Positions 5,935-59,370 of a stretch of 59,432 bases of DNA are shown here, in pieces. Under the pieces are notes generated by a model, which was not told where the DNA came from, searched no databases, and saw only the letters and a program-made list of their open reading frames with translations. The position numbers and the translations under genes were made by a program. Source of the DNA: Kineosporia mesophila (GTDB lineage: Bacteria > Actinomycetota > Actinomycetes > Actinomycetales > Kineosporiaceae); NCBI RefSeq assembly GCF_021129235.1, contig NZ_JAJOMA010000035.1:1-59432 (forward strand). Direction: 5' to 3'. Position 1 is the stretch's first letter. Each line of letters begins with the position of its first letter.

Positions 5935-5961
5935 CGGGTCACCGTAGACGCGGAGCATCGG

Positions 5962-5979
5962 TGCGCACAATGCGCACAA
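5962..5979. promoter_or_regulatory. Tandem 9-bp repeat in the divergent promoter
   Basis: TGCGCACAA occurs twice head-to-tail with no spacer, between the kinase start (5934) and the ABC ATPase start (6086). A related GTTGCGC lies at 5994-6000. Direct repeats in a regulator-target intergenic region are the usual form of response-regulator sites. I infer, without proof, that the CitB-type regulator binds here. Confidence 0.45.
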
Positions 5980-6085
5980 CCCGATCAAAGAGGGTTGCGC
6001 GGGTAAGGGCCGCAACGCAGACGCCAGGGCCGGCCGGTACCTAACGTGCCGGGAAACGTCACCGATCCTCGAAGGCGAGATCCCG

Positions 6086-18947: not shown

Positions 18948-20450
18948 ATGGATTGGAAACCATCTGTGCTCCCGTCACCTACAGATCAGACCCATGAGGT
19001 CCCACCGGTCCGGCACTGGATCGGCGCCCAGTACGTCGGTGGCGGAGTGATACTCCCCAGCGTCGATCCCGCCACCGGCGCCACCATCGGCAGCTTTCAC
19101 GACGTGGAGGCCGAGCAGGTCGGGGCCGCTATCGTCGCGGCGAAGAACGCGTTCGAAACCTCCTCGTGGCCCGACAGTCCCATGCTCCGGTCGCAGGTGC
19201 TGAGTCACCTGGCGGACCGGTTCGAGGACCGGCGGGAGGAACTCGTCACCAGCCTCTGCCGGGAGAACGGCAAGCTGCAGGCCGAGGCCCTGCGCGAGAC
19301 CTCGTACATCGGGAGGGCCCTGCGGATGGCCGCCGGTCTGGCCATTCATCCTCGGGGGCGGGTCGCGGACGTGGCGCCGGGCGTGCAGTCGATGGCCATT
19401 CGCCAGCCGATCGGTGTGGTCGGGGTCATCACCCCCTGGAACTCCCCGTCCTACCTGAGTGTTCGCTCGATCGCCCCGGCCCTGGCCGCGGGATGCACCG
19501 TGGTGGTGAAGATGCCCGCCCAGGCCGCGCAGACCGCCGCCATCGTCATGGACCTCCTCGCGAGCGTGCCGGAACTGCCGGCCGGCGTGGTGAACATCCT
19601 GATCGAGACCGGTTCCGTCGCCGCCCGCCGACTGGTCGAAGCCCCGGACGTGAAGGCGATCAGCTACACCGGCAGCACCGCCACCGGACGGAACATCGCT
19701 CAGGCGGCGGCATCACAGCTGAAACGGGTCGGTCTCGAACTCGGCGGGAAGACACCTCACCTGATCTTCCCCGACGCCGACCTGGACGCGGCCATCCCGG
19801 TCGTCGTCAAGTCGTGCACCGTCTTCGCCGGGCAGTTCTGCATGACCGGCAGCCGGGTCCTGGTGCACGAAAGCATTGCGGACGAGGTGCGGACGCGTCT
19901 GGTCGCGGCTCTCGGGGCGGTGCGTCCGGGGCCGGCGGCCGACCCGGCCAGCGATATGGGACCCCTGATCGACCAGGCCGCCGTCCGGCGGGTGAACCGG
20001 ATGGTGGACGAGGCGGTCGAGGGCGGTGCCCGGGTGCTGCTGCGGGGAGGGCCCGGTGTCGAAGAACCCGGCTCGGCCGGTTCTTTCTACCGGCCCACCC
20101 TCCTGGAGGTGGACGACTCGGCCGTGCCGATCGTCCAGCAGGAAATTTTCGGTCCGGTCCAGGTGCTCCAGGTGTTCGCGACCGAGGACGAGGCCGTCGC
20201 CCTGGCGAACGACACGGAATTCGGCCTGAGCGCCAGTATCTGGACCCGGGACGTGGACCGGCCGGTGCGCCTGAGCCGGCGGCTGGAGGCCGGGCTGATC
20301 TCGGTCAACAGCTGGGCCAACCTGACCGTCGAGTTCGAGGAAGGCGGATGGAAGGCCAGCGGCACGGGGCGTCTGGGCGGTCTGGCCGGTCTGGACGACT
20401 TCCTGGAGTACAAGCAGATCACCCAGGACTTCGCGGGAGGTCGTCGATGA
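18948..20450 (+). CDS. NAD(P)-dependent aldehyde dehydrogenase
   Basis: A 500-residue member of the aldehyde dehydrogenase superfamily. Visible motifs are ITPWNSP near residue 162, the cofactor loop [10 protein letters not shown] near 240, the general base Glu in LELGGKTP near 264, the catalytic Cys in [11 protein letters not shown] near 298 and QEIFGPVQ near 398. All catalytic residues are intact. It oxidises an aldehyde to an acid. In this operon the aldehyde may come from the neighbouring reductase or the sugar-dehydrogenase-like lipoprotein. Its stop codon overlaps the next start (ATGA). Confidence 0.92.
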
Positions 20451-45372: not shown

Positions 45373-45775
45373 GGGCACCGGGTCACGCGAGGAATCGAGT
45401 AGAACGGCTGATCCCCGGTGACGGTGAACCGGTCTGGCGGTAGGCCTGCTGGTCGTTCTCGGCCGGAGCACGGAGGGGAGTTCACCGGCGCCGTGACAGC
45501 AGCTGCCCGCGCCCGGCACGACCTGCGGCGGTCGATGGGCAATACCGGAGTTGACCAATGGTTCAACACGCCCGGCTGCCGCCCACGACGACTGCCCGGA
45601 CGGCTCCCGGTACATCTCCGAACGCCATCTCCACGGGCGACCGCGTCGCGCGGGGGATGGCAGGGGAGTGTCGGAAGGGCGACACGCTGCTGGGCCGAGG
45701 GTGCCTGACCGGGCTGTGATCCTCTTGACACCGGGTCCGCTGAACCAGTGGGCGCCCGAGGGCCGTTTACAGGAG
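45373..45775. other. Promoter region upstream of the acetolactate-synthase-like gene
   Basis: This 403-bp stretch has no supported gene. GTTGACCAATGGTTCAAC (45550-45567) is an imperfect palindrome and TTGACA occurs at 45725, but no matching -10 box is clear. Confidence 0.35.
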
Positions 45776-47332
45776 GTGAACGGCGCTCAGGCACTTCTGC
45801 GGACTCTGATCGACAACGACGTCCGGGTGTGTTTCGCCAATCCCGGAACCTCAGAGATGCACCTGGTCGCGGCCCTGGACTCGTTCCCGGCCATGCGCGC
45901 GGTGCTGTGCCTCTTCGAGGGCGTGGCCACCGGCGCGGCCGACGGGTACGGCCGGATGAACGACTCCCCGGCCGCCACCCTGCTGCACCTCGGTCCGGGT
46001 CTGGGCAACGGGCTGGCCAACCTGCACAACGCCCGCCGGGCCGGCACCGCCGTGCTGAACATCGTCGGCGATCACGCCGCCAGTCATCAGAGTCTGGACT
46101 CGCCCCTGCAGTCGGACATCGCATCGGTGGCCGGCACCGTGTCCTCCTGGGTGGGCCGACCGACCCGGGTGAGCGAGCTGGGGCCGGCCGTGGTCCAGGC
46201 GCTTGAGGTGGGCGGGGTGACGACGCTGATCGTCCCCGCGGACGTGTCCTGGTCCGACGGCGCCGAACCGGCCGGACGGGCGCCGGCCGCACCCATCAGG
46301 CCACCGAACGGCCGTGACCTGAGCGAGCTCCCGGCTGGCGGGGAGCCGGCGGCCTGGATCCTGGACGGCTCGGCGCTGACCGAGGCGGGCCTGCGCGCCG
46401 CCGACCGGATCGCCCAGGTCACCGGTGCGCGGATGTTCTGCCCCACCTGGCCGGCCCGGCAGCGGCGCGGAGTGGGAGTTCCCACCGTGACGCCACTCAG
46501 CTACCGGGCCGAGGGCGTCCGTGAACAGTTCGCCGGCATCCAGCACCTGGTTCTGGTCGGGGCCCGGCCTCCGGTGACCTCCTTCGCCTACCCGGGCCAG
46601 GAGGGGCGCCTGACGCCGTCCGGCGTGCGGGAGCACCACCTCGAGGGCGGCGCTGCCGCTCTGACCGCCCTGGCCGACCGCATCGCTCCCGGCGTCGAGC
46701 CCCGGGTGAGCCCGGCCCTGCCCGCCGATGCCCCGAGCGGGCCCCTGGACGCGGACAACTGGGCTCTCGTGGTCAGCGCCCTCCTGCCCGAGGACGCGAT
46801 CGTCGTCGACGAGGCCATCACGTCCGGAATGACGGTCAGCGCGCGGGCTTTCGGTGGTGCCCCGGCCCACGACGTGCTCGGTCTGGTCGGGCTGGCCATC
46901 GGGCAGGGCCTGCCGCTGGCCGCCGGTGCCGCCATCGCCCGGCCGGACCGTCCGGTGGTCTGCCTGGAGGCGGACGGAAGCGCGATGTACACCCTCTCCG
47001 CCCTGTGGACCCATGCGCGGGAAAACCTGGACATCACCACGATCATCCTCAACAACCGCGCCTACGCCATCCTGCGCGCCGAACTGACGCGGGTCGGGGC
47101 CGACGCGGCCGGGCCCAGTACTGCGTCCATGATGAACCTCGACGGCCCCGACCTGGACTTCGTCTCCCTCAGCGAGGGCATGGGCGTACCGGCTACCCGG
47201 GCCACGACCGTGGCGGAACTGGCCGCCCAGTTCAAGGCCGCGACGGCGAGCCCCGGCCCTCACCTGATCGAGGCAATCCTGACCGGTGAACACGTCCAGG
47301 ACGTCCAGACGCCGATCGAGCCTCTTGCCTGA
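45776..47332 (+). CDS. Thiamine-diphosphate enzyme, acetolactate-synthase large-subunit-like
   Basis: A 518-residue ThDP-dependent enzyme. The N-terminal domain has CFANPGTSEMH near residue 22 and the cofactor-activating Glu in LFEGVATGAADGYGR near 50. The C-terminal domain has the Mg/ThDP motif LEADGSAMYTLSALW...NNRAY near 400. It resembles the acetolactate-synthase/benzoylformate-decarboxylase-like group that starts MNGAQAL. No small subunit or branched-chain biosynthesis gene is nearby, so a decarboxylase or carboligase role is as likely. GTG 45776 is chosen by family alignment; the AGGAG before it is too close, so initiation may be unusual. Confidence 0.85.
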   Translation: MNGAQALLRTLIDNDVRVCFANPGTSEMHLVAALDSFPAMRAVLCLFEGVATGAADGYGRMNDSPAATLLHLGPGLGNGLANLHNARRAGTAVLNIVGDHAASHQSLDSPLQSDIASVAGTVSSWVGRPTRVSELGPAVVQALEVGGVTTLIVPADVSWSDGAEPAGRAPAAPIRPPNGRDLSELPAGGEPAAWILDGSALTEAGLRAADRIAQVTGARMFCPTWPARQRRGVGVPTVTPLSYRAEGVREQFAGIQHLVLVGARPPVTSFAYPGQEGRLTPSGVREHHLEGGAAALTALADRIAPGVEPRVSPALPADAPSGPLDADNWALVVSALLPEDAIVVDEAITSGMTVSARAFGGAPAHDVLGLVGLAIGQGLPLAAGAAIARPDRPVVCLEADGSAMYTLSALWTHARENLDITTIILNNRAYAILRAELTRVGADAAGPSTASMMNLDGPDLDFVSLSEGMGVPATRATTVAELAAQFKAATASPGPHLIEAILTGEHVQDVQTPIEPLA

Positions 47333-47699: not shown

Positions 47700-48536
47700 C
47701 TATCTGGGCGTCGTTGATGAGCGCGGACTGACGTTGCCCGCCGATCGCAGGAGGAATGCGAGGCCGACCACGGCGAGGCCCATCGCGGGATGCAGGAGGG
47801 ACTGGCTCACGCTGGAGGTTCCCAGGGTGAAGTACGTGACGGTCCAATAGCCGGCCAGCACGAAACAGACGGGAACGGCCGCCAGAGCGAACCTGACCTC
47901 ACAGGCAGCGACGAGAAGGGTTGTCGCCAGGGTTATTCCGATGGCGATCCCGAACAGCGGAAACGGCAGGAGCATGGCGGCCCCGAGCATCAAGGGAACG
48001 AGCATCCATCCCCAGGACACCGTGGGGGCCGGTCGTCTCCGCAGGGCCAACCACGCCAGGCCGGCGACGGCCGGCGTGTCGAGCCAGATCAGCAGAATGA
48101 TCGGGGAGGCGGTGGCGAGGAGCAGCGGGTACGAGAACGGAGCGAGCAGGAGAGCCGCACCTGGGTGGCCTCGGAGCAGGAGGGCGAACTTCGACAGTGA
48201 CAGCAGCGTCGCCAGCGGAAACGTCCAAGGTGGCAACCCCGCACCCAGCATCACCGGATCCAGTGCGATGGCGATGCTGCTCATCAGGCTGACACCTAGC
48301 AGCAGGAGAGCAGCCAGACAGGCTGCGGAGTCGAAGGTGGCCGCACGGGGACGCGACCGATCTTCCAGTCGGCGTTGATGAAAGCCGCCCAGCAGCAGTC
48401 CCGTGACCTCGCGGGGGAGGACGCGCCCCTGACTGGAGAATGCCAGGGTGGCGAGCAGTTCGTTGCCGTGAGCGGCCGCCCAGGCTCGGGGGTACGCGCG
48501 CAGGAGTGCCGGGTAGATCCGGTCGGCGGCGCTCAT
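47700..48536 (-). CDS. Hypothetical polytopic membrane protein in PadR operon
   Basis: A 278-residue protein with a soluble N-terminus of about 65 residues (IYPALLRAYPRAWAAAHGNELL) and about seven hydrophobic helices after it. The N-terminal motif is common in actinobacterial membrane proteins encoded beside PadR regulators. Its start overlaps the PadR stop (ATGA), so it is the regulator's cognate partner. Function is unknown; export or envelope stress is a guess from context. Confidence 0.75.
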   Translation of the reverse strand: MSAADRIYPALLRAYPRAWAAAHGNELLATLAFSSQGRVLPREVTGLLLGGFHQRRLEDRSRPRAATFDSAACLAALLLLGVSLMSSIAIALDPVMLGAGLPPWTFPLATLLSLSKFALLLRGHPGAALLLAPFSYPLLLATASPIILLIWLDTPAVAGLAWLALRRRPAPTVSWGWMLVPLMLGAAMLLPFPLFGIAIGITLATTLLVAACEVRFALAAVPVCFVLAGYWTVTYFTLGTSSVSQSLLHPAMGLAVVGLAFLLRSAGNVSPRSSTTPR

Positions 48537-48865
48537 GCCGGCGACACCCGGACGATGCTGGTGCGGGCCATGACGACTCGCGCAGCCGCCTCCAGGCGTT
48601 CGGCTTCCGCAGTGACGGCAGTCAGCCCGGTGGGCGTCAGCGAGTATGCGCGTCGGGGTCGGCCCTCGACGACCTCTTCCGCACCGGGCAGCAGGAGACC
48701 GTCAGCGGTCAGCCGTTCCAGCGCGCCGTAGAGGGTGCCGGTGGACAGGCGCACGCGTCCGTCGGAAAGTTCGAGGACCTGTTTGAGGATCGCGTAGCCG
48801 TGCAGAGGGCCGTCGATCAGGGCAGCCAGGACGAAATAGCTTGGTTCCCGCAGCGGTCTCGACAT
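48533..48865 (-). CDS. PadR-family transcriptional regulator
   Basis: A 110-residue winged-helix protein: YFVLAALIDGPLHGYAILKQV, then RLSTGTLYGALERLTADGLL and the wing RPRRAYSLTPTG, with a C-terminal dimerisation helix. This is the compact PadR type. The ATG at 48865 begins MSRPLREPSYF, as in homologues; upstream codons are spurious. It is co-transcribed with the membrane protein and likely represses its own operon. Confidence 0.9.
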   Translation of the reverse strand: MSRPLREPSYFVLAALIDGPLHGYAILKQVLELSDGRVRLSTGTLYGALERLTADGLLLPGAEEVVEGRPRRAYSLTPTGLTAVTAEAERLEAAARVVMARTSIVRVSPA

Positions 48866-48869
48866 GCCC

Positions 48870-48897
48870 CGACTATATGTCGCTTTACGACGTGTCG
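48870..48897. promoter_or_regulatory. CGAC/GTCG inverted repeats before the PadR gene
   Basis: CGAC-TATAT-GTCG (48870-48882) and CGAC-GT-GTCG (48888-48897) lie just upstream of the PadR start, with a further ATATAT nearby. They are candidate PadR autoregulatory sites. Confidence 0.4.
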
Positions 48898-49221
48898 GCA
48901 ACCGATATATGGGGACGTCGGTGTCAGGAGCCGGAAAGCTCTCCGTGCTTGCTCGCTGATCTCCCTCGCAGGGACGGTGGGGGCCCGCCCCCCGCTGAGG
49001 GGGAGGGCCACCGGAGGTGTGCCGATGTTCAGCACTTCTCGGCGACAGCGTCCTCACCAGGGAAACGGAACCCCCACCACATCATGGCTACATCAGGCCG
49101 TACCAGCAGGGGCGAAACGCGCCCTGAGCGAATCTGTCCGGCCGGGCCCGAGCCGCAGAAGCACGGAAACAAGGTTCGGCCCGGCGGGCGGGTCCGCAAC
49201 GGTGGGCCCAAGGCCGTCAGG
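48898..49221. other. Intergenic region between ABC operon end and PadR promoter
   Basis: No gene is supported. A near-perfect hairpin (arms 49141-49154 and 49173-49185, GCCGGGCC core) begins 37 bp after the permease stop and is the probable terminator of the sugar-importer operon. Confidence 0.5.
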
Positions 49222-50235
49222 TCAGCGACTTTCGGCGCCCCCACGCCTCAGCAACAGCATGTTGATCAGCACGGCCCCCACGATCAACCCACCCCGCACC
49301 ACATCCTGCACGTACGAGTTCACGCCCAGAATCACCAGTCCGTTACCGATCACGGTAATGAACAGAACCCCTAGCAGCGTCCCCAGCAAGGAACCCCGGC
49401 CACCCGACAGCGAGGTCCCACCCACCACGACAGCCGCGATGACCGAGAACTCAAGTCCCACAGCCGCACTACTGCTCCCGGACGCCAGCCGAGCGGCGAA
49501 GACAACACCGAGCAGCGCCGCCGACAGTCCGCTGACGGCGAAAATGAGGATCCGCACCCGTGAAACGTTGATGCCGGTCAGCATGGCCGCCCGGGCATTG
49601 CCGCCGACAGCGAAGACAGAACGGCCGAAGGTGGTGCGGCGGGAGATGAAGGCGAAGATCACGAACAGGACGAGCATGAGGATGGCGGCGGTGGGGACCT
49701 GTCCGATCTTGCCGCCCAGGGTGTCCAGGAAGGAGTTGGTCTCGATCGGGACCGGCAGGGAGTTGGTCATGAACTGGGCGAGCCCCCGCAGCGCGCTGTA
49801 CAGGCCCAGGGTGACGATGAAGGAAGGGACGCCGAAGCGGGCGCGTACCCAGCCGCCGAGGGCGCCTACGAGCATCCCTCCGACCAGGGTCAGCACGATG
49901 GCCAGCCACAGCGGCAGGCTCCAGCGGCCGTCCAGCTCGGCCAGGATGACGCTCCAGAACGCCACTGCCGAACCGACACTCAGATCAATTTCGCCGGCCA
50001 CGATGACCAGGGTTCCGGCCCAGGCGACGATGCCGACCAGGGCCGCGTCGCCCAGGATCGCCCACATGTTCGCGGTGGTGGCGAAATTCTCGGCAGTGAA
50101 GCTGAGCACGATGATCAGCAGGATCAGCGCGGCGGCCAGGCCGGCCTCGTTCAATTGCTGGGTACTCAGGTGCACGCCACCCGAAAAGCGGGAGCGACGG
50201 CTGGGCGGGGACTGGGTCTGTACTGCACTCACCAT
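49222..50235 (-). CDS. Sugar ABC transporter permease, RbsC-like
   Basis: A 337-residue permease of the ribose/xylose/galactose class with 8-10 membrane helices. Family segments are VAGEIDLSVGSAVAFWSVI near residue 85, RARFGVPSFIVTLG near 130, FAVGGNARAAMLTGINVSRVR near 225 and VVGGTSLSGGRGSLLGTLLG near 285. The start is ATG 50235 or the next codon GTG, which has better spacing to AAGGAG. It is third in the operon, 13 bp after the ATPase gene. Confidence 0.92.
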   Translation of the reverse strand: MVSAVQTQSPPSRRSRFSGGVHLSTQQLNEAGLAAALILLIIVLSFTAENFATTANMWAILGDAALVGIVAWAGTLVIVAGEIDLSVGSAVAFWSVILAELDGRWSLPLWLAIVLTLVGGMLVGALGGWVRARFGVPSFIVTLGLYSALRGLAQFMTNSLPVPIETNSFLDTLGGKIGQVPTAAILMLVLFVIFAFISRRTTFGRSVFAVGGNARAAMLTGINVSRVRILIFAVSGLSAALLGVVFAARLASGSSSAAVGLEFSVIAAVVVGGTSLSGGRGSLLGTLLGVLFITVIGNGLVILGVNSYVQDVVRGGLIVGAVLINMLLLRRGGAESR

Positions 50236-50248
50236 GACTCCTTGAAGA

Positions 50249-51757
50249 TCAGTGCTCGGCAATGGCCGCGAGCAGAAGCGTTTCGGTCTCGATGGCCGGG
50301 GCCGCCTGCTCGGCCACGATCCGGCCACCGGCCAGCACGACCGCCCGATCGCACACCAGGTTCAGCTCGTCCATCTCGCTGGAGACGAACACCACGGCCG
50401 TGCCGGCGGCGGCCAGTTCCCGCAGCAGCTCGTAGATCTGGGCTTTGGCCTGGACATCGACGCCGCGGGTGGGTTCGTCCAGCAGCAACAACCGGCTGCC
50501 GGCGTGCAGCCAGCGCCCGATCACGATTTTCTGCTGGTTGCCGCCACTGAGATGACCGATGGGGGTGCGCGGGTCGCGGGTGCGCACGGACATGCTGGCG
50601 ATCGCCCTCTGAGCCGCGATCAGCAGCTGCTGGGGTTTGATCACTCCGAAGCGGGAGACCTTGCCCCAGTCGGTCAGGACCAGGTTCTCGTCCACGCCGA
50701 GTTCGGGGATGATGCCGTCGTTCTTGCGGTCCTCGGGGGTGATGCCCACACCAAGCTTCTTGGCGTGGGTGAAACCCTTTCCGTCGATGCGCTTGCCCTC
50801 GAACTCCACCGTGCCGGAGTCTGGTTCGCGAAGCCCCGCCATGACCTGCAGCAGCTCGGTGCGGCCCGAGCCCAGGACTCCGGCCAGGCCCAGCACCTCC
50901 CCGGCGCGCACCTCGAAGGTGACCCCGGCCAGCTTGGGGGCCACGGCGACCTCGCGCACGGTCATCAGGACCGGCCCGGCCTCGCGGCGCCCGGCCGCCT
51001 CGCTCACGGCGGGGGTCTCGGCGCCGCTCTCACCGACCATCATGGCCACCACCTGGCGGGAGGTCAGATTGGCCATCGGGAGGGTGTCGATCACGCGGCC
51101 GTCGCGCATCACCGTGGCGGTGTCGGCGATACGGCGGATCTCGGCCAGGCGGTGGCTGACGTAGACGACCGCCACGCCGCTGGAGCGGATGGTCTCCACG
51201 ACGGTCAGCACCCGGTCCACTTCGGCTGCGGCCAGGGAGCTGGTGGGCTCGTCCAGGATCAGCAGGGTGGGGTCGTTGGCCAGGGCCCGGGCGATCTCGA
51301 CCATCTGCTGGTCGGCGATGCTCAGCTCGCCGACCAGGCGGCGCGGGTGCAGGTCCAGTCCCAGGCGGTGCAGCGCCGCCTGGGACTCGTCCTCCATCCG
51401 CCGCTGGTCGATCTGCCCGTTGCGCTTGGGCCAGGCGCCCATGAACAGGTTCTCGGCCAGCGTCATCTCCGGGATCAGGGTGAGTTCCTGATAAACGGTC
51501 ATCACCCCCAGCCGCTGGGCGAGCTGGACGTCCGGGCCCTGCAGGCGGGTGCCGCCCAGGGTGACGCTGCCCTCGTCCGGGGCTTCGACCCCGGCCAGCA
51601 GCCGGATCACCGTGGACTTACCGGCCCCGTTCTTGCCCAGCAGTGCCCGGACCTCACCGCGGGCGATGGACAGATCGACTCCCGACAGCGCCTGCACGGC
51701 GCCGTACTGCTTGCTCGCCCCGCTGATCGTGGCGATCGCCGTACCCGGCTCGGTCAT
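50249..51757 (-). CDS. Sugar ABC transporter double ATPase, RbsA-like
   Basis: A 502-residue protein made of two ATPase modules. The first has Walker A GKNGAGKST (41-49), signature LSIADQQMVEIARAL near 148 and LLILDEPTSSL. The second has the family's degenerate P-loop GVLGSGRTELL near 291, but an intact signature LSGGNQQKIVIGRWL near 408 and LLLLDEPTRGVD. Such fused ATPases drive import of monosaccharides (ribose, xylose, galactose) or polyols. It lies between binding-protein and permease genes. Confidence 0.93.
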   Translation of the reverse strand: MTEPGTAIATISGASKQYGAVQALSGVDLSIARGEVRALLGKNGAGKSTVIRLLAGVEAPDEGSVTLGGTRLQGPDVQLAQRLGVMTVYQELTLIPEMTLAENLFMGAWPKRNGQIDQRRMEDESQAALHRLGLDLHPRRLVGELSIADQQMVEIARALANDPTLLILDEPTSSLAAAEVDRVLTVVETIRSSGVAVVYVSHRLAEIRRIADTATVMRDGRVIDTLPMANLTSRQVVAMMVGESGAETPAVSEAAGRREAGPVLMTVREVAVAPKLAGVTFEVRAGEVLGLAGVLGSGRTELLQVMAGLREPDSGTVEFEGKRIDGKGFTHAKKLGVGITPEDRKNDGIIPELGVDENLVLTDWGKVSRFGVIKPQQLLIAAQRAIASMSVRTRDPRTPIGHLSGGNQQKIVIGRWLHAGSRLLLLDEPTRGVDVQAKAQIYELLRELAAAGTAVVFVSSEMDELNLVCDRAVVLAGGRIVAEQAAPAIETETLLLAAIAEH

Positions 51758-51819
51758 GACTACTCCGTCTTCCGCGGTCGAGCTGGTCTGATCGTCGAAA
51801 AGGCTCTCTGCAGGCAGTC

Positions 51820-52830
51820 TTACGGGATGCCGTCGGCGTGAGCGGTCAGCCAGTCGGCCGCTGTCCGGGGCGAGTACAGGTCGACCTGTACCGGCACGAC
51901 GACCTCGGCCGGCTTCTTGCCCTCCACCGCGTCCAGGGCGGCCTTGACCGCGGCCTTGCCCATGGTCTGCCCGCCGATGTCGACCTGGGCCTTCAGCACC
52001 GAGCCGTCCTTCAGGGCGTTGGCGATGTCCGTGGTCATGTCGCCACCGAAAACCACCGTCTTGCCCACGCGGTCGGCGTTCTGGACCGCCTTGATCGCGC
52101 CCACGGTGGCGTCGCCGTACTCACCCATGAAGCCGTCCAGGTCCGGGTGGGCGGTGAGGATGTTCTGCGCCGCGGTCAGCGAAGCCGACGCGTCGCCGCC
52201 CTTCTGGTTGGCCACGATCGTGTAGGCGGGCAGTTTTTCCTTCATCGCCTTGTCGAAACCGGCGCGGCGCTGCACGCAGACCTCCAGGAACTCGCAGTCG
52301 ACCACGCCGATCCTGGGTGCGTCGATCTTTGCGCTCTGGAAGTACTCGGCCGCGGCCGTGCCCAGCTGGTAGCCGAACTCCTCGGGGTCGCCGAGGGTGT
52401 ACGCGGTCACGTACTTGCCCAGGTCCGGCTCGGTGATGCAGGTGTTGTAACAGATCACCGGGATGTCGGCCTGAGAGGCCGCGCGGATGGCCGGGACCGA
52501 GGCGGTGGCGCTGGAGGCGGACAGCATGATGGCATCGACCTGCTGGGCCACCAGGTTCGTCATGAACGTCGACTCTTTGCTGGCGTCGTCCTGGGCGTTG
52601 GTCTCCACGACCTTGATGTTGGTGCCGGCCTCGGCTGCACCGTCGTCGATGCCCTTCTTGACCCCACCGTAGAAACCCTGGGTGTCCAGGTAGATCACAC
52701 CGAGCTTGACGCTGTCGCCGCCCGAGCCGCCGGCGCCGGATTCCGAGTCGCTGCCGCAGGCCGCCAAGCTCGCCGCGAGAGCTAAGCAAGCTCCTAGTAC
52801 GGCAGCAGATCTCCATTGAAATGCGGGCAC
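51820..52830 (-). CDS. Sugar ABC transporter substrate-binding lipoprotein, RbsB-like
   Basis: A 336-residue periplasmic-binding-protein fold. The signal peptide ends in the lipobox SLAAC (Cys25) followed by a Gly/Ser linker. The mature domain starts KLGVIYLDTQGFYGGVKKGIDDGAAEAG and shows MLSASSATASVPAIRAASQADIPVI and GEYGDATVGAIKAV, typical of pentose/hexose-binding proteins. An extra Cys-containing stretch (CYNTCITEPD, DCEFLEVC) is unusual and might form disulfides. GTG 52830 is fixed by GGAGG five bases upstream. First gene of the importer operon. Confidence 0.92.
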   Translation of the reverse strand: MPAFQWRSAAVLGACLALAASLAACGSDSESGAGGSGGDSVKLGVIYLDTQGFYGGVKKGIDDGAAEAGTNIKVVETNAQDDASKESTFMTNLVAQQVDAIMLSASSATASVPAIRAASQADIPVICYNTCITEPDLGKYVTAYTLGDPEEFGYQLGTAAAEYFQSAKIDAPRIGVVDCEFLEVCVQRRAGFDKAMKEKLPAYTIVANQKGGDASASLTAAQNILTAHPDLDGFMGEYGDATVGAIKAVQNADRVGKTVVFGGDMTTDIANALKDGSVLKAQVDIGGQTMGKAAVKAALDAVEGKKPAEVVVPVQVDLYSPRTAADWLTAHADGIP

Positions 52831-52914
52831 TTCGACCTCCTGGGCTGGTACGTCCGCGTCGTCGCGGTCACGTCGTCGTGCGGCCAGGCTGTCAGGCCCG
52901 CAAGGGACACCCCT

Positions 52915-52954
52915 ATGGCAGCAACGACTATGCACATGGAGAAATCCACGATGC
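52915..52954. promoter_or_regulatory. Shared 40-bp element, copy B (upstream of sugar importer)
   Basis: Read on the minus strand (toward the importer), this element has 32 of 40 bases in common with copy A at 53865-53904. The core is CTCCATGTG-N3-AGTCGTTG (with A fixed in the middle of N3). It begins 84 bp upstream of the binding-protein start and just beyond the araC stop. I propose it is the AraC-binding site of the importer promoter. Confidence 0.6.
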
Positions 52955-52977
52955 CGGCCGGAACCGGGGGCGAAAGA

Positions 52978-53868
52978 TCACCCCTTGGCGCGGGCCCGAT
53001 GCTCCGAGGGTGTCATCCCGTGCACGGACCGGAACTGCCGGGAGAAGTACAGCGGGTCGCCGTATCCGACATTCCGGGCGATGACCGATACGGGGATCTC
53101 GGTCGTGTCCAGCAGCTGACGGCTTTTCATCATCCGCAGACGAGTCTGGTATTCGTGTGGGCCGCAGCCGACCGCCTTTCGGAAGATTGCGGACAGATGG
53201 GATGGTGAAAGGCCGGCATGTTCGGCCAGTTCGGCCACGCTGACCTTCTGGGTGAAGCGTTGCTGCAGGTACTCCATGGTCAGCTGAACGGCGTCCGGGC
53301 GGCCCGGGGACAGGCCCGAAGCCGCCGTGGACAGCAACGCCAGCAGGTGCCAGCCGGCCCCGGCCGCCAGTTGCAGCGTGGCCATCGAGTCGTCGCGTTC
53401 CATCCCGCGCAACGCCTCCTCCACCAGGGCGACGGCCCGCGGCAGATCGGTCACCGTGACCACCGGGTTCTGGGCGCTGGCGCCGTTGGCCTCGACCAGC
53501 GCGCCCACGTCGTCCCCCCGCAGATGCATCCACCAGACGGTCCAGGGGGAGTCCTCGGCCGATCCGTAGCGGTGCGGCGTTCCGGCCGGGATGACCAGGG
53601 CGTGGCCGGGGTGCACGGCGTGGGAGCCGCCGGGCAGTTCGCACCAGCCGTAGCCGTCCACGCACAGGATGAGGATGGTCTCGGCGCAACCGGTGGGGCG
53701 GGTACGCAGGTGATCGGCCGCGGAAGGGAAGTACCCGCAATCGGTCACCAGCAGCCGGGAGGTGACGGGCTGCTCCAGGGCGCTGACCACCCGCGGGCGG
53801 GGCAGCACGCTGATCCGCTCGCCGGGAAAGCCGGACCTGAGAGCCACCACCGAACTGTAGCCAGGCAT
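52978..53868 (-). CDS. AraC-family regulator of the sugar locus
   Basis: A 296-residue regulator. The N-terminal cupin-like arm binds the effector (PGHALVIPAGTPHRYGS near residue 80). The C-terminal domain has the two helix-turn-helix units AELAEHAGLSPSHLSAIFRK near 212 and IARNVGYGDPLYFSRQFRSV near 260. This layout is shared with sugar-responsive activators such as RhaS, XylR and MsmR. ATG 53868 is fixed by GGAGG eight bases upstream. It sits between the importer operon and the divergent catabolic operon. A copy of a 40-bp element lies on each side of it. Confidence 0.9.
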   Translation of the reverse strand: MPGYSSVVALRSGFPGERISVLPRPRVVSALEQPVTSRLLVTDCGYFPSAADHLRTRPTGCAETILILCVDGYGWCELPGGSHAVHPGHALVIPAGTPHRYGSAEDSPWTVWWMHLRGDDVGALVEANGASAQNPVVTVTDLPRAVALVEEALRGMERDDSMATLQLAAGAGWHLLALLSTAASGLSPGRPDAVQLTMEYLQQRFTQKVSVAELAEHAGLSPSHLSAIFRKAVGCGPHEYQTRLRMMKSRQLLDTTEIPVSVIARNVGYGDPLYFSRQFRSVHGMTPSEHRARAKG

Positions 53869-53904
53869 CGCGGTTTCCTCCATGTGAACAGTCGTTGGGG
53901 GCAT
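53865..53904. promoter_or_regulatory. Shared 40-bp element, copy A (upstream of DUF5107 operon)
   Basis: On the plus strand it reads GCATCG...CTCCATGTGAACAGTCG..., ends 35 bp before the DUF5107-TPR start and overlaps the araC ribosome site and start codon. The matching copy B, in the same orientation relative to its own target, precedes the importer operon. Position suggests co-regulation of both operons, with AraC repressing itself. Confidence 0.6.
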
Positions 53905-53939
53905 GGGTCGGGGCCGCCGGTGTTCATAGCCTCGCTGTC

Positions 53940-56900
53940 ATGCCGTCCTCACCCAGCAACGCCTCCCGGCTGGTGCTTCCCGACATTCCCGCAGAGCTGG
54001 CATCGGTGCCGGTGGCGGCCTGGCGGGAGCCGGTCGACATCGACACCTACGAGCCGATGCCGCCGGACCGCTACCCGATGTTCCTGGAAAACAGGGTGTA
54101 TCAGGGTTCTTCGGGCAAGGTCTACCCGATGCCCTTCTACGACCGGATCGAGCGCGAGAAGCATCCGCGCCGCTGGGACGCCGTGCACCTGGAGAACCGC
54201 TGGATCCGGCTGACGATCCTGCCGGAGCTCGGTGGGCGCATCCACGTCGGCTACGACAAGAGCGCGGGCTACGATTTCTTCTACCGCAACAACGTCATCA
54301 AGCCGGCGCTGGTCGGGCTGGCCGGCCCCTGGATCTCGGGTGGGGTGGAATTCAACTGGCCGCAGCACCACCGGCCCGCCACCTATCTGCCGGTGGGCGT
54401 GGAGATCGAGACGCACGCCGACGGCGCGGTGACCGTATGGTGTTCCGATCATGACCCTTTCCACCGGCTCAAGGGCATGCACGGCATCACCCTGCACCCG
54501 GATCGGGCCGTCGTGGAGGTGCGGGTGCGGCTGCACAACCGCACCGAGGACGTGCGGACGTTCCTGTGGTGGGCCAACGTCGCCGCCCGGGTGAACGACG
54601 ACTACCAGTCGTTCTTCCCCGAGGACGCGCACGTCGTGGCCGACCATGCGCGCCGGGCCACCACGACTTTCCCTCGTGCCACCGAGCCCTACTACGGCAT
54701 CGACTATCCGGCGCGGGTGAGCCCCGAGAATCCTGACGCGGACGGGATCGACTGGTATCGCAACATCCCGGTGCCCACGTCGTACATGTGCCTGGACAGC
54801 AAGGGTGACTTCTTCGGTGGCTACGACCATGGCGCGCAGGCCGGGTTCGTGCACTGGGCCGACCACCGCATCGCTCCGGGCAAGAAGCAGTGGACCTGGG
54901 GCAACGAGAAGTTCGGCTGGGCCTGGGACCGCAACCTGACCGACGGCGACGGCCCCTACGTCGAGTTGATGGCCGGGGTCTACACCGACAACCAGCCCGA
55001 CTTCTCCTTCCTGGCCCCCGGCGAGACCAAGACCTTCAGCCAGTACTGGTACCCGATCCAGGGCATCGGACCGGTACATCAGGCCACCACCGAGGTCGCG
55101 GTGCACCTGGAGGTGCCCGGTCCGGACACCGTCAGTTTCGCCATCGCGTCCACCCAGGTCCGCGACGGGGTGCGCATCTCGCTACTGGACCCGGACGGTC
55201 GGGTTCTGCACGCCACCCAGGCTGACCTGGCTCCGGAAAAGCCCTTCACCGCTGATGTTCCGCTGAACCGATCACTGAACCGGCACGAGCTGACCATCCT
55301 GATCGAGGACGACGCACAGGAGCTCCTACGGTGGTCTCCCACCGATCCGAGGATCGGGACGTCCACCCGATCAGCCGCTTTCGAACCGGAAGCGCCCGGT
55401 GATCTGGACACGGTCGAGGAGCTGTACCTGACCGGGCTGCACCTGGCCCAGTACCGGCACGCCACCCGCTCGCCCGAGGTGTACTGGCAGGAGGCCCTGC
55501 GCCGGGACCCCGGGGATTCCCGGAGCGCGACCGCGCTGGCGGCCCGGGCCTATGAGCGCGCCGAGTACGAGGTGGCCGAAGAGCTGTTGCTGGGCGCCGT
55601 CACCCGGCTCAGCCTGCTCAACTCCAACCCCGCCGACGGCGAGGCGCACTACCGGCTGGGTCTGACCCGGCAACGGACCGGCCGGACGGCCGAGGCCTAC
55701 GACCACCTGGCCAAGGCGGCCTGGAACCAGGCCTGGCGGGCGCCGGCGCAACTGGCGATGGCCCGCCTGGACGCCCAGGACGCCCACTGGACCCGAGCGC
55801 TGTCCTTGCTCGACGACGTCCTCAAGCTCGACACCGACCTGCTGGCCGCTCGCGACCTGCGGGTGCTGGTTCTACGACGGCTCGGGCGGGACGCGGAGGC
55901 CGAGGCCCAGTTGCGTGCCACCCTGGCTCTGGACCCGCTGGACTGGTGGGCCCGGGATCTCGCCACCCACGCAGCCCTGGACTGCGACGCCCGCACCCAT
56001 CTGGACGTGGCCACCGAGTACGCCTCGGCCGGTTTCCTGGACGAGGCCCTGCGCGTGCTGGAGGCCGCCGTCGAGGCCGCCGGCCGCGAGCCCTGGACCG
56101 GCATCCTGCCGCTGGCGCACTATCACCGGGCCCAGGTACTGGACCGGCTCGAGCGGGGCGGCGAGGCCGCTGCGGCCCGACGAGAGGCGGCCGCGGCTGA
56201 CCAGGCCTACTGCTTCCCCCACAGCCTGGAGGACGAAAGCGCCTTGCGGGCGGCGCTGGTTGCGGGGCCGGACGGGCGAGCGGCTGCCCTGTACGGGAAC
56301 TGGCTCTATGATCGCCGCCGTTACGCTGAGGCGATCGCGCACTGGGGCCAGGCCGTTCGGGCCCATCCCGACGACGCTGTCAGCTGGCGCAATCTGGCCA
56401 TCGCCAACCACAACGTCCTCCATGACGCAGCCGGCGCCGTGGGGTGCTTCGAGAAGGCCCTTGCGGCGGCCCCGGACGACGGACGGCTGCGTTTCGAACG
56501 TGACCAGCTGGCCAAGCGCACCGGCGAGTCGCCTGCGGCCCGGCTGGAGCGTCTGGACGAACGCCGGGACCTGGTGCGTCAGCGGGACGACCTGACGATC
56601 GAGTGGGTGGGGCTGCTGGTGAACGCCGGACTGGCTGAACAGGGCGTCCAGGAGATGAGGGGACGGGACTTCCAGCCCTGGGAGGGGGGTGAGGGGCAGA
56701 CACTGGGCGTCTGGGAACGGGCGCATCTGCTGCTGGCTCGCCAGGCTCAGGTTCCGGCCGAGGCCGAACGGTTCCTGCGGGCGGCCCTGGACCCGCCGCA
56801 GAACCTGGGGGAGGGGCCGCATCTGCTGGCCAACCGCTCTGATCTGCTGCTCGCGCTCGGCGATGCCCTCGCCGCGCAGGACCGCAAGGACGAGGCCAGG

Positions 56901-57323
56901 ACGGCCTGGCAGGAGGCGGCGACGTTCGCCGGGGACTTCCAGGAGATGAGCACCCAGCCCTACAGCGAGAAGACCTACTTCTCGGTGCTGGCGTGGCGGC
57001 GGCTGGGCCGGACCGACCGGGCGGATGAGCTTTTGGACGGGCTGCGCGCCTATGCGCGCCAACTCGCCTCAACGGCGGCGACGATCGACTACTTCGCCAC
57101 CTCCTTGCCCACCCTGTTGCTTTTCCACGACGACCTTCAGGCCCGGCGCGCCACGACCGCCCGGTTCCTGGACGCCCAGGCCGCCGCCGCGGCCGGTGCC
57201 CGCGACGAGGCCGTGAGCCAGTTGCGGTTGGTCCTGGAACGCGACTCGAACCACGCGTCCGCCATTGATCTCTTGCAGGATCTGACCGCCCCTTCGACCA
57301 TCGACAGCCAGGAGTCACGATGA
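53940..57323 (+). CDS. Large DUF5107 and tetratricopeptide-repeat protein
   Basis: A 1127-residue cytoplasmic protein without signal peptide. The N-terminal third (about residues 25-380) is a DUF5107 domain with sequence such as VHLENRWIRLTILPELGGRIH, FFYRNNVIKPALVGLAGPW, GGVEFNWPQHHRP and GHDxGAQ-like GGYDHGAQAGFVHW. This fold is related to galactose-mutarotase/aldose-epimerase-like proteins. A beta linker follows (about 385-490), then an array of TPR helices (about 500-1110). I expect a sugar-binding or sugar-processing N-domain with a protein-interaction tail. The catalytic role is not established. First gene of the catabolic operon, ATGA-coupled to the next. Confidence 0.82.
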   Translation: MPSSPSNASRLVLPDIPAELASVPVAAWREPVDIDTYEPMPPDRYPMFLENRVYQGSSGKVYPMPFYDRIEREKHPRRWDAVHLENRWIRLTILPELGGRIHVGYDKSAGYDFFYRNNVIKPALVGLAGPWISGGVEFNWPQHHRPATYLPVGVEIETHADGAVTVWCSDHDPFHRLKGMHGITLHPDRAVVEVRVRLHNRTEDVRTFLWWANVAARVNDDYQSFFPEDAHVVADHARRATTTFPRATEPYYGIDYPARVSPENPDADGIDWYRNIPVPTSYMCLDSKGDFFGGYDHGAQAGFVHWADHRIAPGKKQWTWGNEKFGWAWDRNLTDGDGPYVELMAGVYTDNQPDFSFLAPGETKTFSQYWYPIQGIGPVHQATTEVAVHLEVPGPDTVSFAIASTQVRDGVRISLLDPDGRVLHATQADLAPEKPFTADVPLNRSLNRHELTILIEDDAQELLRWSPTDPRIGTSTRSAAFEPEAPGDLDTVEELYLTGLHLAQYRHATRSPEVYWQEALRRDPGDSRSATALAARAYERAEYEVAEELLLGAVTRLSLLNSNPADGEAHYRLGLTRQRTGRTAEAYDHLAKAAWNQAWRAPAQLAMARLDAQDAHWTRALSLLDDVLKLDTDLLAARDLRVLVLRRLGRDAEAEAQLRATLALDPLDWWARDLATHAALDCDARTHLDVATEYASAGFLDEALRVLEAAVEAAGREPWTGILPLAHYHRAQVLDRLERGGEAAAARREAAAADQAYCFPHSLEDESALRAALVAGPDGRAAALYGNWLYDRRRYAEAIAHWGQAVRAHPDDAVSWRNLAIANHNVLHDAAGAVGCFEKALAAAPDDGRLRFERDQLAKRTGESPAARLERLDERRDLVRQRDDLTIEWVGLLVNAGLAEQGVQEMRGRDFQPWEGGEGQTLGVWERAHLLLARQAQVPAEAERFLRAALDPPQNLGEGPHLLANRSDLLLALGDALAAQDRKDEARTAWQEAATFAGDFQEMSTQPYSEKTYFSVLAWRRLGRTDRADELLDGLRAYARQLASTAATIDYFATSLPTLLLFHDDLQARRATTARFLDAQAAAAAGARDEAVSQLRLVLERDSNHASAIDLLQDLTAPSTIDSQESR

Positions 57324-58408
57324 GCGCCAGCCCCACCACGACGACGATGTCGGGTGTCTTCCTGCCCGGAGACTCCACCGCCGTGCTGCGCGAGTACGAC
57401 CTTCCGCAGCCGGGACCGGGTCAGGTTCTGCTGAAGGTGGGCGCCTCCGGCATCTGCGGCAGCGACATCGGCTACATCTACCGCGGTTACAAGACCCACA
57501 AGGGTCTGGACGGGGCTCCCGCCTATCACGGTGTGATCGCCGGCCACGAGCCGGCCGGCACGGTCGTCGCCACCGGCCCCGGGGTTCACCGGGTCGGCCC
57601 CGGTGACCGGGTGATCGTCTATCACATCGTCGGCTGCGGGGAATGCCGCAACTGCCGCTCGGGATACTTCATCAGCTGCAGCGACGAGGAGCGCCGCAAG
57701 TCCTACGGCTGGCAGCGCGACGGTGGGCACGCGCCCTACCTGATCGCCGAGGAGTCGACCTGCATTCCTCTGCCGCAGGAACTCTCGTTCGTGGACGGAA
57801 GCCTGATCGCCTGTGGGTTCGGAACCGCCTACGAAGGACTGATCCGCACGGCTGTCAACGGTTCTGACACCCTGCTGGTGGCCGGTCTCGGACCGGTCGG
57901 CCTGGCCGCGGCGATGATCGCCCGCTGCTTCGGCGTGCGCCGGGTCATCGGTGTGGAGCGCACCCCGGGCCGGATCGATTTCGTGCGCGGTACCGGCCTG
58001 GTCGACGACATCGTCCTGGCCGACGACAACGCGGTGCAGAATATTCTGGAACTTACCGGGGGAGAGGGATGTTCGGTCGCGGTTGACGCCTCCGGCTCGG
58101 CCCCGGGCCGGTCGGTCGTCGTTGACGCGGTCGCCGAATGGGGTCGGGTGTCACTGCTGGGTGAGGGCGGGCGGCTGGAGACCGAGGTCTCGGACTCGCT
58201 GCTGCACAAGCAGGTCACCATCCATGCCTCCTGGGTGACCTCGCTGCAGGGTATGCAGGACCTGACCGGCCTGCTGGCGCGCAGCGGCGTCCACCCCGAA
58301 CTGGTGGTCAGTCACCGGATGCCGCTGGAAGAGGCGGATGCGGCGTACCGGCTGGCCGCGGCCGGCGCCGAGGGCAAGGTTGTGCTCGTCCCGGGAGAAT
58401 TTGCATGA
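57320..58408 (+). CDS. Zinc-dependent sugar/polyol dehydrogenase
   Basis: A 362-residue medium-chain dehydrogenase. The catalytic zinc ligands are C46 (SGICGSD) and H76-E77 (GHEPAG). The structural zinc is held by C106, C109, C112 and C120 (CGECRNC...C). NAD(P) binds at GLGPVGLAAAMIAR near 186. Relatives include sorbitol, threonine and galactitol dehydrogenases, so oxidation of a polyol or sugar hydroxyl to a ketone is likely. It overlaps both neighbours by 4 bp (ATGA twice), showing tight stoichiometric coupling with the DUF5107-TPR and DUF4380-like proteins. Confidence 0.92.
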   Translation: MSASPTTTTMSGVFLPGDSTAVLREYDLPQPGPGQVLLKVGASGICGSDIGYIYRGYKTHKGLDGAPAYHGVIAGHEPAGTVVATGPGVHRVGPGDRVIVYHIVGCGECRNCRSGYFISCSDEERRKSYGWQRDGGHAPYLIAEESTCIPLPQELSFVDGSLIACGFGTAYEGLIRTAVNGSDTLLVAGLGPVGLAAAMIARCFGVRRVIGVERTPGRIDFVRGTGLVDDIVLADDNAVQNILELTGGEGCSVAVDASGSAPGRSVVVDAVAEWGRVSLLGEGGRLETEVSDSLLHKQVTIHASWVTSLQGMQDLTGLLARSGVHPELVVSHRMPLEEADAAYRLAAAGAEGKVVLVPGEFA

Positions 58409-59370
58409 GTTGCACCGTGAGCCAGGAGGTGCGCGGCGACCTCGACGTGCTCATCGTCGCCAACGACACCCTGGAACTGGCCTTCCTGCCCCAGATCGGA
58501 GGGCGGCTGATCTCCCTGCAGATGCTCGGAGCCGAACTGCTCTGGCACAACCCGGCTCTACTCGCGGACGACTTCACCCCCCGCCGTCCATACGCCTCCT
58601 GGCCGCCCACGGACGGGACCATGGGGAGCTGGGCCAACGTCGGGGGGAGCAAGACCTGGCCCGCCCCCCAGGGCTGGTCCGGGCCGCACGAGTGGCCCGG
58701 ACCCCCGGACGAGGTCCTGGACGCCGGCACCTACACCGTCCAGGCAGACCTTGATCCCGACGGTTCCGCCCGCGTCACCCTGATCAGCGCCGACGACCCC
58801 CGCACCGGCATCCGCATCGAGCGTCGTTTCGTGCTGCCCGCCAACGGCCCAGACTTCACCCAGACCTCCACGTTCGTCAACCATTCGCACCAGAGAGTGA
58901 ACTGGTCGGTCTGGGAGATCACCCAGGTCGACACCACCCCTCGACCCGGGGCCACCGGAACCGGGCGCTTCCTGGTCGACGTGGACGGGAACGACACGCC
59001 TGTAATTCTTTTCGAGGTCCTGGGCGCTGCGAAACACACCCTGCGGCCCGGAGTCGTCGAGATCCCGGTGCAGGAGACCGTGGGAAAGCTCGGCTTCACC
59101 CAGGCCACCGGCCGCCTGACCTACATCCGCACCGACGGCCTGCAACTCACCCAGACCATCACCCGTGAGCCCGGTCAGCTCTACCCCGACGGCGGCTGCC
59201 CCGTCGAGCTGTGGTTGCAGTACCCGGTCGCCGAGCCCATCGAGAGCCTGGGCGGCTTACGACCGGATGCGCACCTGGCGGAGATGGAGGTGCTGTCTCC
59301 GCTGTACGGGATCGAGCCCGGAGACCGGGCCGAGCTGATGGTGGAATGGCGGGTCGAGCACTCAGGGTGA
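58405..59370 (+). CDS. DUF4380-like, mutarotase-fold protein
   Basis: A 321-residue soluble protein. The N-terminal half (LELAFLPQIGGRLISLQMLGAELLWHNP) and the pattern of Trp/Pro-rich loops (GSKTWPAPQGWSGPHEWPGPP) match DUF4380. This domain has the beta-supersandwich look of aldose-1-epimerases. QTSTFVNHSHQRVNWSVWEITQV and GQLYPDGGCPVELWLQYP are further recognisable pieces. No classical epimerase His/Glu pair can be assigned with confidence. Last visible gene of the operon, ATGA-coupled to the dehydrogenase. A mutarotase or 3-keto-sugar-processing role is a hypothesis from context. Confidence 0.75.
   Translation: MSCTVSQEVRGDLDVLIVANDTLELAFLPQIGGRLISLQMLGAELLWHNPALLADDFTPRRPYASWPPTDGTMGSWANVGGSKTWPAPQGWSGPHEWPGPPDEVLDAGTYTVQADLDPDGSARVTLISADDPRTGIRIERRFVLPANGPDFTQTSTFVNHSHQRVNWSVWEITQVDTTPRPGATGTGRFLVDVDGNDTPVILFEVLGAAKHTLRPGVVEIPVQETVGKLGFTQATGRLTYIRTDGLQLTQTITREPGQLYPDGGCPVELWLQYPVAEPIESLGGLRPDAHLAEMEVLSPLYGIEPGDRAELMVEWRVEHSG

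Follow-up and report, generated by a model that had tools for sequence, protein, structure and literature searches.

An actinobacterial form of the Escherichia coli yph locus that may handle a galactose-family sugar

The yphBCDEFG genes are annotated as 'putative' even in the best-studied bacterium, E. coli, and no characterised function for yph was found in the literature searched. Published work lists YphH with the transcription factors whose function is unknown (PMC9308461), includes YphB in an alignment (PMC5902678) and, in a uropathogenic strain, tests a mutant of yphF (PMC11032443). YphF protein is reported to be raised on levoglucosan versus fructose in engineered E. coli (PMC8753852), which fits general derepression equally well. 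Literature searches gave one paper for DUF5107 and none for DUF4380, and one on TPR, mutarotase and galactan found nothing. The original prediction for the locus described here had treated its gene set as otherwise unknown. No characterised pathway with the same set appeared in the literature searched; the set itself is that of E. coli yphBCDEFG, with substitutes for two of the parts.

The window, meaning the whole stretch of DNA that was analysed, is an entire contig of 59,432 bases, and the host genome is in 61 contigs and 97% complete. The CUT2 importer, the AraC regulator and the divergent three-gene trio were all found as predicted, and the idea of a sugar-related system of linked genes is supported. 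The features are as follows.

49222..50328, minus strand: CUT2 ABC permease, YphD-type (PF02653; 58.9% identity to E. coli YphD over 316 aa)
50249..51757, minus strand: CUT2 double ATP-binding subunit, YphE-type (PF00005 in two stretches; 47.8% identity)
51820..52935, minus strand: sugar-binding protein (SBP), YphF-type (PF13407; 49.5% identity over 295 aa)
52978..53904, minus strand: AraC-family regulator, where E. coli has YphH (PF12833, PF02311)
53905..53939, no strand: short divergent gap between the AraC ATG at 53904 and the YphG-type ATG at 53940 (from the sequence)
53940..57323, plus strand: DUF5107-TPR protein, full-length YphG counterpart (PF17128; 37.0% identity over 1082 aa)
57320..58408, plus strand: Zn-dependent MDR dehydrogenase, YphC-type (PF08240, PF00107; 49.3% identity)
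58405..59370, plus strand: DUF4380 protein, where E. coli has YphB (PF14315; predicted mutarotase fold)

ATGA overlaps are present at both junctions of the trio (DUF5107-TPR/MDR and MDR/DUF4380), and both promoters would sit in, or overlap, the divergent gap. The DUF5107-TPR frame opens with a TTG at 53895, and the ATG at 53940 gives 1127 aa; no hydrophobic start was seen in this protein. The true start of the permease probably lies inside its frame. The SBP frame opens with a GTG at 52935, the real start probably being closer to the hydrophobic stretch, and a lipobox-like LAAC, read by eye, makes the SBP a probable lipoprotein. No tRNA and no Rfam family at gathering score was found in the window. 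The contig ends 62 bases past the DUF4380 stop, and the operon may go on beyond it with further genes. Therefore, the original observation that kinase, aldolase and glycosidase genes are missing holds for the visible locus, but not as a general claim.

The E. coli K-12 locus yphBCDEFG-yphH (b2544-b2550) shares five genes with the window, the importer trio, the MDR and the DUF5107-TPR protein, which align along most of their length with 37-59% identity. It differs in having the aldose 1-epimerase YphB where the window has DUF4380, and the NagC-like/ROK regulator YphH where the window has AraC, the presumed switch of the locus; it is also a single run of genes, whereas the window holds two divergent units. 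The locus is almost certainly the soil actinobacterial form of yph. Its importer had been called ribose-type. The ribose models of NCBIfam all scored far under their cut-offs (RbsB 66.2/337 bits, RbsC 194.6/398, RbsA 400.2/745), so that the label is valid for the complete importer as a CUT2 class only, and ribose importer identity was rejected.

In the tree, which has several long branches, the MDR groups with YphC (clade support 100/99), and Tdh, GatD, LgoD, RspB, YdjJ and YcjQ fall outside. Twelve aligned sequences are invariant at C46/H76/E77, C106/C109/C112/C120 and G189/G191/G194, which we take to be the catalytic zinc ligands, the structural zinc ligands and the GxGxxG motif. The inositol enzyme IolM and the threonine enzyme Tdh were both rejected on NCBIfam scores far under the cut-offs; the score on scyllo-inosose 3-dehydrogenase IolM (NF041097) was 155.9 against 450 bits. 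Sorbitol and xylitol dehydrogenases are among the PDB matches, and some YphC relatives adjoin polyol genes: YphC-like MDRs of 48-56% identity lie beside a xylulokinase-like kinase (L127), a mannitol dehydrogenase (L130) and aldo/keto reductases (L128, L133). These matches would suit a route in which an imported polyol such as galactitol is oxidised by the MDR, with DUF4380/YphB and YphG acting on the resulting aldose or ketose. However, none of those four loci has the YphDEF-type importer, DUF4380 or YphG, a sugar kinase is absent from the visible locus and from E. coli yph, and the galactosidase-type neighbours of YphG described below would be unexpected for a polyol. We therefore regard a polyol substrate as unlikely.

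Mutarotase-like folds had been proposed for DUF5107 and DUF4380, and Foldseek on AlphaFold2 models agrees. The DUF5107-TPR protein scores 184.9 bits on PF17128 (gathering cut-off 24.4), and its good model comprises a mutarotase-fold domain and a TPR solenoid; the DUF5107 half matches B. subtilis GalM (3mwx) with a TMt of 0.62 at rank 21, after 5cd6 and TPR proteins. The DUF4380 protein only just exceeds the cut-off of PF14315 (33.5 versus 29.4 bits). Its model, built from 4 sequences only with a mean pLDDT of 82.9, matches YeaD at rank 1 (TM 0.64/0.69) and YphB in fold alone (3nre, rank 9). By sequence, it gave no blastp match to YphB at E 1e-3 and an hhalign probability of 0.7%. YphG and DUF4380 might just interconvert sugar anomers, with the TPR part as an oligomerisation device, and the common fold in the models is in keeping with this; so are ten oxidative galactose loci without YphG (see below), where perhaps no alpha anomer is needed. 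Yet an aldose 1-epimerase already stands beside YphG in E. coli and Klebsiella, the DUF5107 and DUF4380 profiles do not align to YphB/GalM (hhalign probability <1%), and the TPR half carries 23 invariant residues, leaving a plain set of mutarotases quite unlikely. The His/His/Glu/Arg set, presumably the catalytic residues of an aldose 1-epimerase, is kept in the YphB sequence set, but the two DUF profiles do not align there.

DUF5107-TPR proteins are widespread, with 592 confirmed matches, the best 80 of which span many phyla. These 80 and three plasmid records gave 83 YphG loci, with a usable YphG frame in 82 (not L091); unannotated loci were mapped by a greedy longest-ORF script, which may include antisense false genes. 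A GH2, GH35, GH36 or GH59 gene lies within 3.5 kb of YphG in 37 of the 82 loci and is missing there in the other 45; a sugar transporter is as close in 35. Of the members tested, the one from the GH2 cluster had its best score on an exo-beta-1,4-galactosidase, below the cut-off (916/1500), and one from the GH35 cluster gave a weak score on exo-beta-glucosaminidase (85/1500 bits). Neither GH2 nor GH35 consists of galactosidases alone. The Pfam content of 83 picked neighbours (249 listed) was mixed, including 5 ABC permeases, 4 GFO/IDH/MocA oxidoreductases, 3 GH30, and 2 each of GH3, SSF, sulfatase and others. Leloir or galactonate genes beside YphG were rare (84 loci: galT+galK in one, galM-like in two, dgoD-like in three).

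The DUF5107-TPR protein had been suggested to scaffold the pathway. In most of the 82 loci it stands without MDR and DUF4380, and scaffolding was rejected as its main reading for this reason; the Klebsiella locus likewise has it without MDR. Invariant residues occur in both halves of YphG-type proteins, and the TPR solenoid bears an invariant EGGEG motif. Because the modelled mutarotase fold and TPR solenoid both carry invariant residues, the protein appears closer to an enzyme in two parts than to a scaffold. A sensory role was also considered, with YphG sensing the sugar and working with the neighbouring AraC regulator: TPR domains frequently bind proteins, and 49 of the 82 loci have an AraC gene no more than 3.5 kb away. 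But a NagC-like/ROK regulator takes the place of AraC in E. coli and Klebsiella, and invariant charged and aromatic residues seem about as dense as in an enzyme, making a sensor very unlikely. In a quick tree of 40 sequences chosen by us, MDR-linked YphGs do not form one clade (5 changes, AU p 0.00011); hence the YphG-MDR association was gained, or lost, repeatedly.

We then compared loci by their MDR. A search irrespective of neighbours covered 394 genomes of the class, with orthologs in 19 at 1e-75 (the window's own among them), and 349 from a single related family, with orthologs in 11 at 1e-110. This gave 28 distinct loci besides the window; two of them (L172, L175) are on the same contigs as loci of the YphG search (L026, L035). 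Gene content was assigned by tblastn with thresholds of our own. The full seven-gene set, AraC, YphG, importer, MDR and DUF4380, recurs in 10 of the 28, confirming that the cluster is conserved elsewhere. Another ten, all without DUF5107-TPR, combine importer, MDR and DUF4380 with De Ley-Doudoroff galactose genes, and 8 fit neither pattern. YphG and galactonate dehydratase co-occur in none of the 28. The locus is nonetheless sparse, since only 2 (DUF4380) and 8 (DUF5107) of 296 sampled phylum genomes, own included, have matches; the DUF4380 protein had no match among plasmid sequences.

In the ten De Ley-Doudoroff-type loci, with genes outside L125/L126 named by similarity to L125, L126 and E. 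coli DgoA, we found galactonate dehydratase and an SDR in 10/10, a DgoA-like aldolase and an SGL lactonase in 9/10, and a KDGal kinase in 8/10. All ten genomes exceed the galactonate dehydratase cut-off of 311 bits, one of the dehydratases scoring 578.9. Such loci, joining the module to lactonase, dehydratase, kinase and aldolase genes, suggest aldose oxidation: the MDR would be a sugar 1-dehydrogenase converting galactose or an analogue to the lactone, DUF4380/YphB would give the right anomer, and the rest of a non-phosphorylative route would be encoded elsewhere. The aldose epimerase residues retained in YphB point the same way, as does a more distant Neorhizobium MDR relative (42%) accompanied by fucU, an SGL-like gene, a mandelate-racemase-type gene and an SDR. 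Galactonate dehydratase also exceeds the cut-off in two of 11 YphG-type genomes, perhaps three (G900 is just below, at 305.4). On the other hand, the SDR already in the ten loci could be the galactose dehydrogenase, and 9 of the 11 YphG-type genomes, including the window's, have no galactonate dehydratase above the cut-off. In the window's genome, at 97% completeness, the best score was 142.4, so that neither locus nor genome has such an enzyme above the cut-off, which argues against De Ley-Doudoroff membership. Aldose oxidation thus seems improbable here. GalK exceeds its cut-off in 21/21 genomes, including 11/11 YphG-type; being so common, its presence is weak evidence. Two MDR loci (L128, L129) have both GalK and GalT within the 20 kb examined.

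Judging from gene content and neighbourhoods, the substrate is probably of the galactose family. It is plausible, at slightly less than an even chance, that such a sugar, or a small galactoside, is taken up and converted by the products of the locus to D-galactose, which would then feed the endogenous Leloir pathway. In this galactose proposal, the YphDEF-type ABC importer, established in class, would bring in its presumed ligand. The YphC-type Zn-MDR, conserved at its zinc-ligand positions, would oxidise one hydroxyl with a nicotinamide cofactor. The DUF4380 protein, of predicted mutarotase fold and a neighbour of the MDR in loci of two types, may handle the MDR product or its anomer, and the conserved YphG-type protein would finish the conversion to a usable hexose with residues of both its mutarotase-fold and TPR halves. 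Galactokinase, whose gene lies elsewhere in the genome, would take over. An oxidative route via a keto intermediate, as first suggested, is possible; the order and nature of the MDR, DUF4380 and YphG steps as given are doubtful. Slightly more doubtful is a broader idea, in which YphG founds an undescribed class of carbohydrate-active enzymes with an active site formed jointly by the mutarotase-fold domain and the TPR solenoid, and MDR and DUF4380 form a redox module that frees or rearranges galactose via a keto intermediate, together making a galactoside route without a classical glycosidase. The galactose-related pointer from relatives makes the function of the widespread DUF5107-TPR protein testable. 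With importer, MDR and DUF4380 continued by either YphG or a galactose pathway, the list of substrates is short and can be tried in E. coli K-12.

Among other known systems, the YcjQ/YcjR/YcjS guloside pathway of E. coli uses sugar dehydrogenases with a keto intermediate, as in the original prediction. YcjQ is annotated as D-guloside 3-dehydrogenase and called a D-glucoside dehydrogenase in one report (PMC11543891). Its similarity to the window MDR is marginal (E 0.005) and its partner epimerase YcjR has no counterpart in the window locus, and YcjQ-like guloside chemistry was rejected on homology. The nearest solved structure to the window's YphG-type protein, BDI_1685 of Parabacteroides distasonis (PDB 5cd6), likewise joins DUF5107 to TPR, but has 580 aa, a far shorter TPR part and an entry title without a function. 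The Klebsiella pneumoniae yphG locus, which adjoins glyA (large plasmid record L095), likewise combines DUF5107-TPR with a sugar transporter and an aldose 1-epimerase; it has an MFS sugar porter, a ROK regulator and no MDR, in contrast to the ABC importer, AraC and MDR of the window. The De Ley-Doudoroff-type loci (L117-L126) lack DUF5107-TPR and carry galactonate dehydratase and SDR, mostly with lactonase, KDGal kinase and aldolase, yet share the importer, MDR and DUF4380 module with the window at 37-67% identity.

The locus at 49222-59370 is filled by seven genes. An ORF and domain check bore out the coordinates and domain calls of the original prediction for all seven:

within 49222-59370, minus strand: CUT2 permease, double ATPase, sugar-binding protein (SBP) and AraC regulator
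within 49222-59370, plus strand: DUF5107-TPR protein (hereafter YphG, after its E. coli relative), zinc dehydrogenase (MDR) and DUF4380 protein

Two ATGA overlaps join the YphG, MDR and DUF4380 genes. The contig ends 62 bases past DUF4380, so the operon may be truncated; in the greedy ORF maps of three related loci (L030, L178, and L179), the ORF downstream of DUF4380 lies on the opposite strand. Judged by 17-residue hydropathy alone, a strongly hydrophobic start is present in the SBP and absent from YphG, MDR, and DUF4380. Among the NCBIfam matches listed for the seven proteins (the best 25 for the ATPase and AraC), no model exceeded its cut-off. A plus-strand TPP-dependent enzyme (45551-47332; PF02775, PF02776) lies just ahead of the locus, and a minus-strand membrane-like protein with no Pfam match (47700-48536) adjoins a PadR-type regulator (48533-49057, minus). 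The window also encodes a sensor histidine kinase with a single cache domain 3 (4258-6285, minus), an NMT1/THI5-like binding protein (7802-8848), and an aldehyde dehydrogenase (18948-20450).

The MDR alone was used as query, so that loci were not selected by their expected neighbours. It matched 19 of 394 genomes of the class at 1e-75, its own included, and 11 of 349 genomes of one related family at 1e-110. Besides the window, 28 distinct loci were fetched with their flanks and typed by tblastn. Ten of them (type A) all carry AraC, YphG, SBP, ATPase, permease, MDR, and DUF4380, in three gene orders, the window representing a fourth; an eleventh, in Agromyces albus (L030), was reached through the YphG search. 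Another ten (type B) share the importer, MDR, and DUF4380 with type A, and also contain an SDR (10/10), galactonate dehydratase (10/10), SGL lactonase (9/10), KDGal kinase (8/10), and DgoA-like aldolase (9/10). These De Ley-Doudoroff type loci thus hold both MDR and SDR, one dehydrogenase being without an obvious role. YphG and galactonate dehydratase were found together in none of the 28 loci by tblastn typing. The remaining eight belong to neither type: L116 has the importer and MDR only, L128 and L129 carry GalK and GalT in the fetched stretch, and L127 and L130-L133 (L132 on a 6.7-kb contig) hold none of the sought partners, save an SDR in one. In L127 (8175-11956) and L130 (6890-11749), the YphC-like MDR has another Zn-MDR as its neighbour, together with a xylulokinase-like kinase in the former and a mannitol dehydrogenase in the latter; these stretches represent a polyol variant. 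A Neorhizobium plasmid locus (L096:5291-14157) combines a YphC-like MDR with a CUT2 importer, fucU, an SGL-like gene, a mandelate-racemase type enzyme, and an SDR, and may encode an oxidative route for a deoxysugar or a pentose. A YphG relative occurs in three of six genomes searched from the window's genus, its own included. In a 296-genome spread sample of the phylum, DUF5107 was found in eight genomes and the window's DUF4380 in two, own included in both; with so few carriers, the locus is sparse.

YphG relatives extend far beyond the MDR-linked cluster. A scan of named genomes gave at least 592 confirmed matches, and the best 80 of the 592 are spread over Actinomycetota, Acidobacteriota, Verrucomicrobiota, Planctomycetota, Pseudomonadota, and other groups. 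Neighbours were counted at 82 loci with a usable YphG ORF, drawn from these best 80 and from plasmid records. Within 3.5 kb of YphG lie AraC at 49 loci, GH2, GH35, GH36, or GH59 at 37, and a sugar transporter (sugar-porter MFS, CUT2, or CUT1) at 35, many of these genes beginning a few bases from YphG. Another recurring neighbour (cluster c15, L069:13381-14769 and relatives) was seen at five loci; its 462-aa representative had no match in Pfam or NCBIfam. As in E. coli, YphG of Klebsiella adjoins glyA; around it are a ROK regulator, a sugar-porter MFS, and an aldose 1-epimerase, but the MDR and ABC importer are absent, which makes the MDR an optional partner. A tree of 40 YphGs requires five changes to account for the MDR-linked members and rejects placing them in a single clade (AU p 0.00011). 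The pairing thus appears to have been made or lost several times, which favours function over mere descent, though the same pattern could also result if neighbours were repeatedly transferred or lost.

YphG had been proposed to scaffold the pathway. Its AlphaFold2 model (mean pLDDT 91.7, pTM 0.90) retrieved 5cd6 first in Foldseek, with many TPR proteins, and the DUF5107 half matched B. subtilis GalM at rank 21 (TMt 0.62). Of 87 invariant columns in 76 aligned sequences, 64 lie within residues 1-400 and the remaining 23 after that point, including H522, Y530, R832, E868, R897, D899, R924, E930-G934 (EGGEG), E973, and D1065 (numbered from TTG 53895). Such invariant residues would be superfluous in a plain scaffold; the alignment instead suggests a two-part enzyme, with active residues presumably from both halves. 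DUF4380 is modelled as a mutarotase (mean pLDDT 82.9, built on 4 sequences), nearest to YeaD and GalM, with YphB (3nre) ninth in Foldseek. The DUF4380 and DUF5107 profiles are alike over 129 columns (hhalign probability 92.9), and neither aligned with YphB/GalM in profile comparison. YphB retains the residues expected for catalysis.

On balance, and with moderate confidence, we take the substrate to belong to the galactose family. Three lines point there: galactosidase-type genes near YphG, the De Ley-Doudoroff genes of the type B loci, and the presence of GalK/GalT close to two of the MDR orthologs. Against it, GalK, although over cut-off in 21/21 genomes, is common anyway, both GH2 and GH35 have mixed membership, few of 84 loci have genes of a galactose pathway close to YphG, and polyol genes stand beside some MDR relatives. 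The analysis establishes the importer class, the conserved zinc-ligand positions, the predicted folds, the gene pairing, and the conservation, from which the ligand, the reactions, and their order are inferred. Types A and B have a front module in common but part ways after it, so the MDR and DUF4380 step would most simply precede galactose; YphG in type A would occupy the position that an entire galactose pathway has in type B. The MDR may instead be the galactose dehydrogenase itself, particularly in type B. Galactonate dehydratase is over cut-off in all ten type B genomes and in only two of 11 type A genomes (the window's not among them; a third, G900, scored just short). The product therefore probably exits by a route other than galactonate in the majority of type A genomes, the Leloir pathway being at hand.

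The gene set is not a new one. A PF17128 search of control genomes matched E. coli and led to yphBCDEFG-yphH, five genes of which encode proteins identical to those of the window at 58.9% (permease/YphD), 47.8% (ATPase/YphE), 49.5% (SBP/YphF), 49.3% (MDR/YphC), and 37.0% over 1082 residues (YphG). Direct comparison of DUF4380 with YphB and of AraC with YphH did not reach E 1e-3. The window MDR and YphC fall within one clade (support 100/99) that excludes six further E. coli MDRs, several of them on long branches. No functional study of yph was found in the literature searched. The window locus, real and conserved but sparse, is thus yph in an actinobacterial form in which two parts have been replaced, and the substrate hypothesis is open to testing in E. 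coli K-12.
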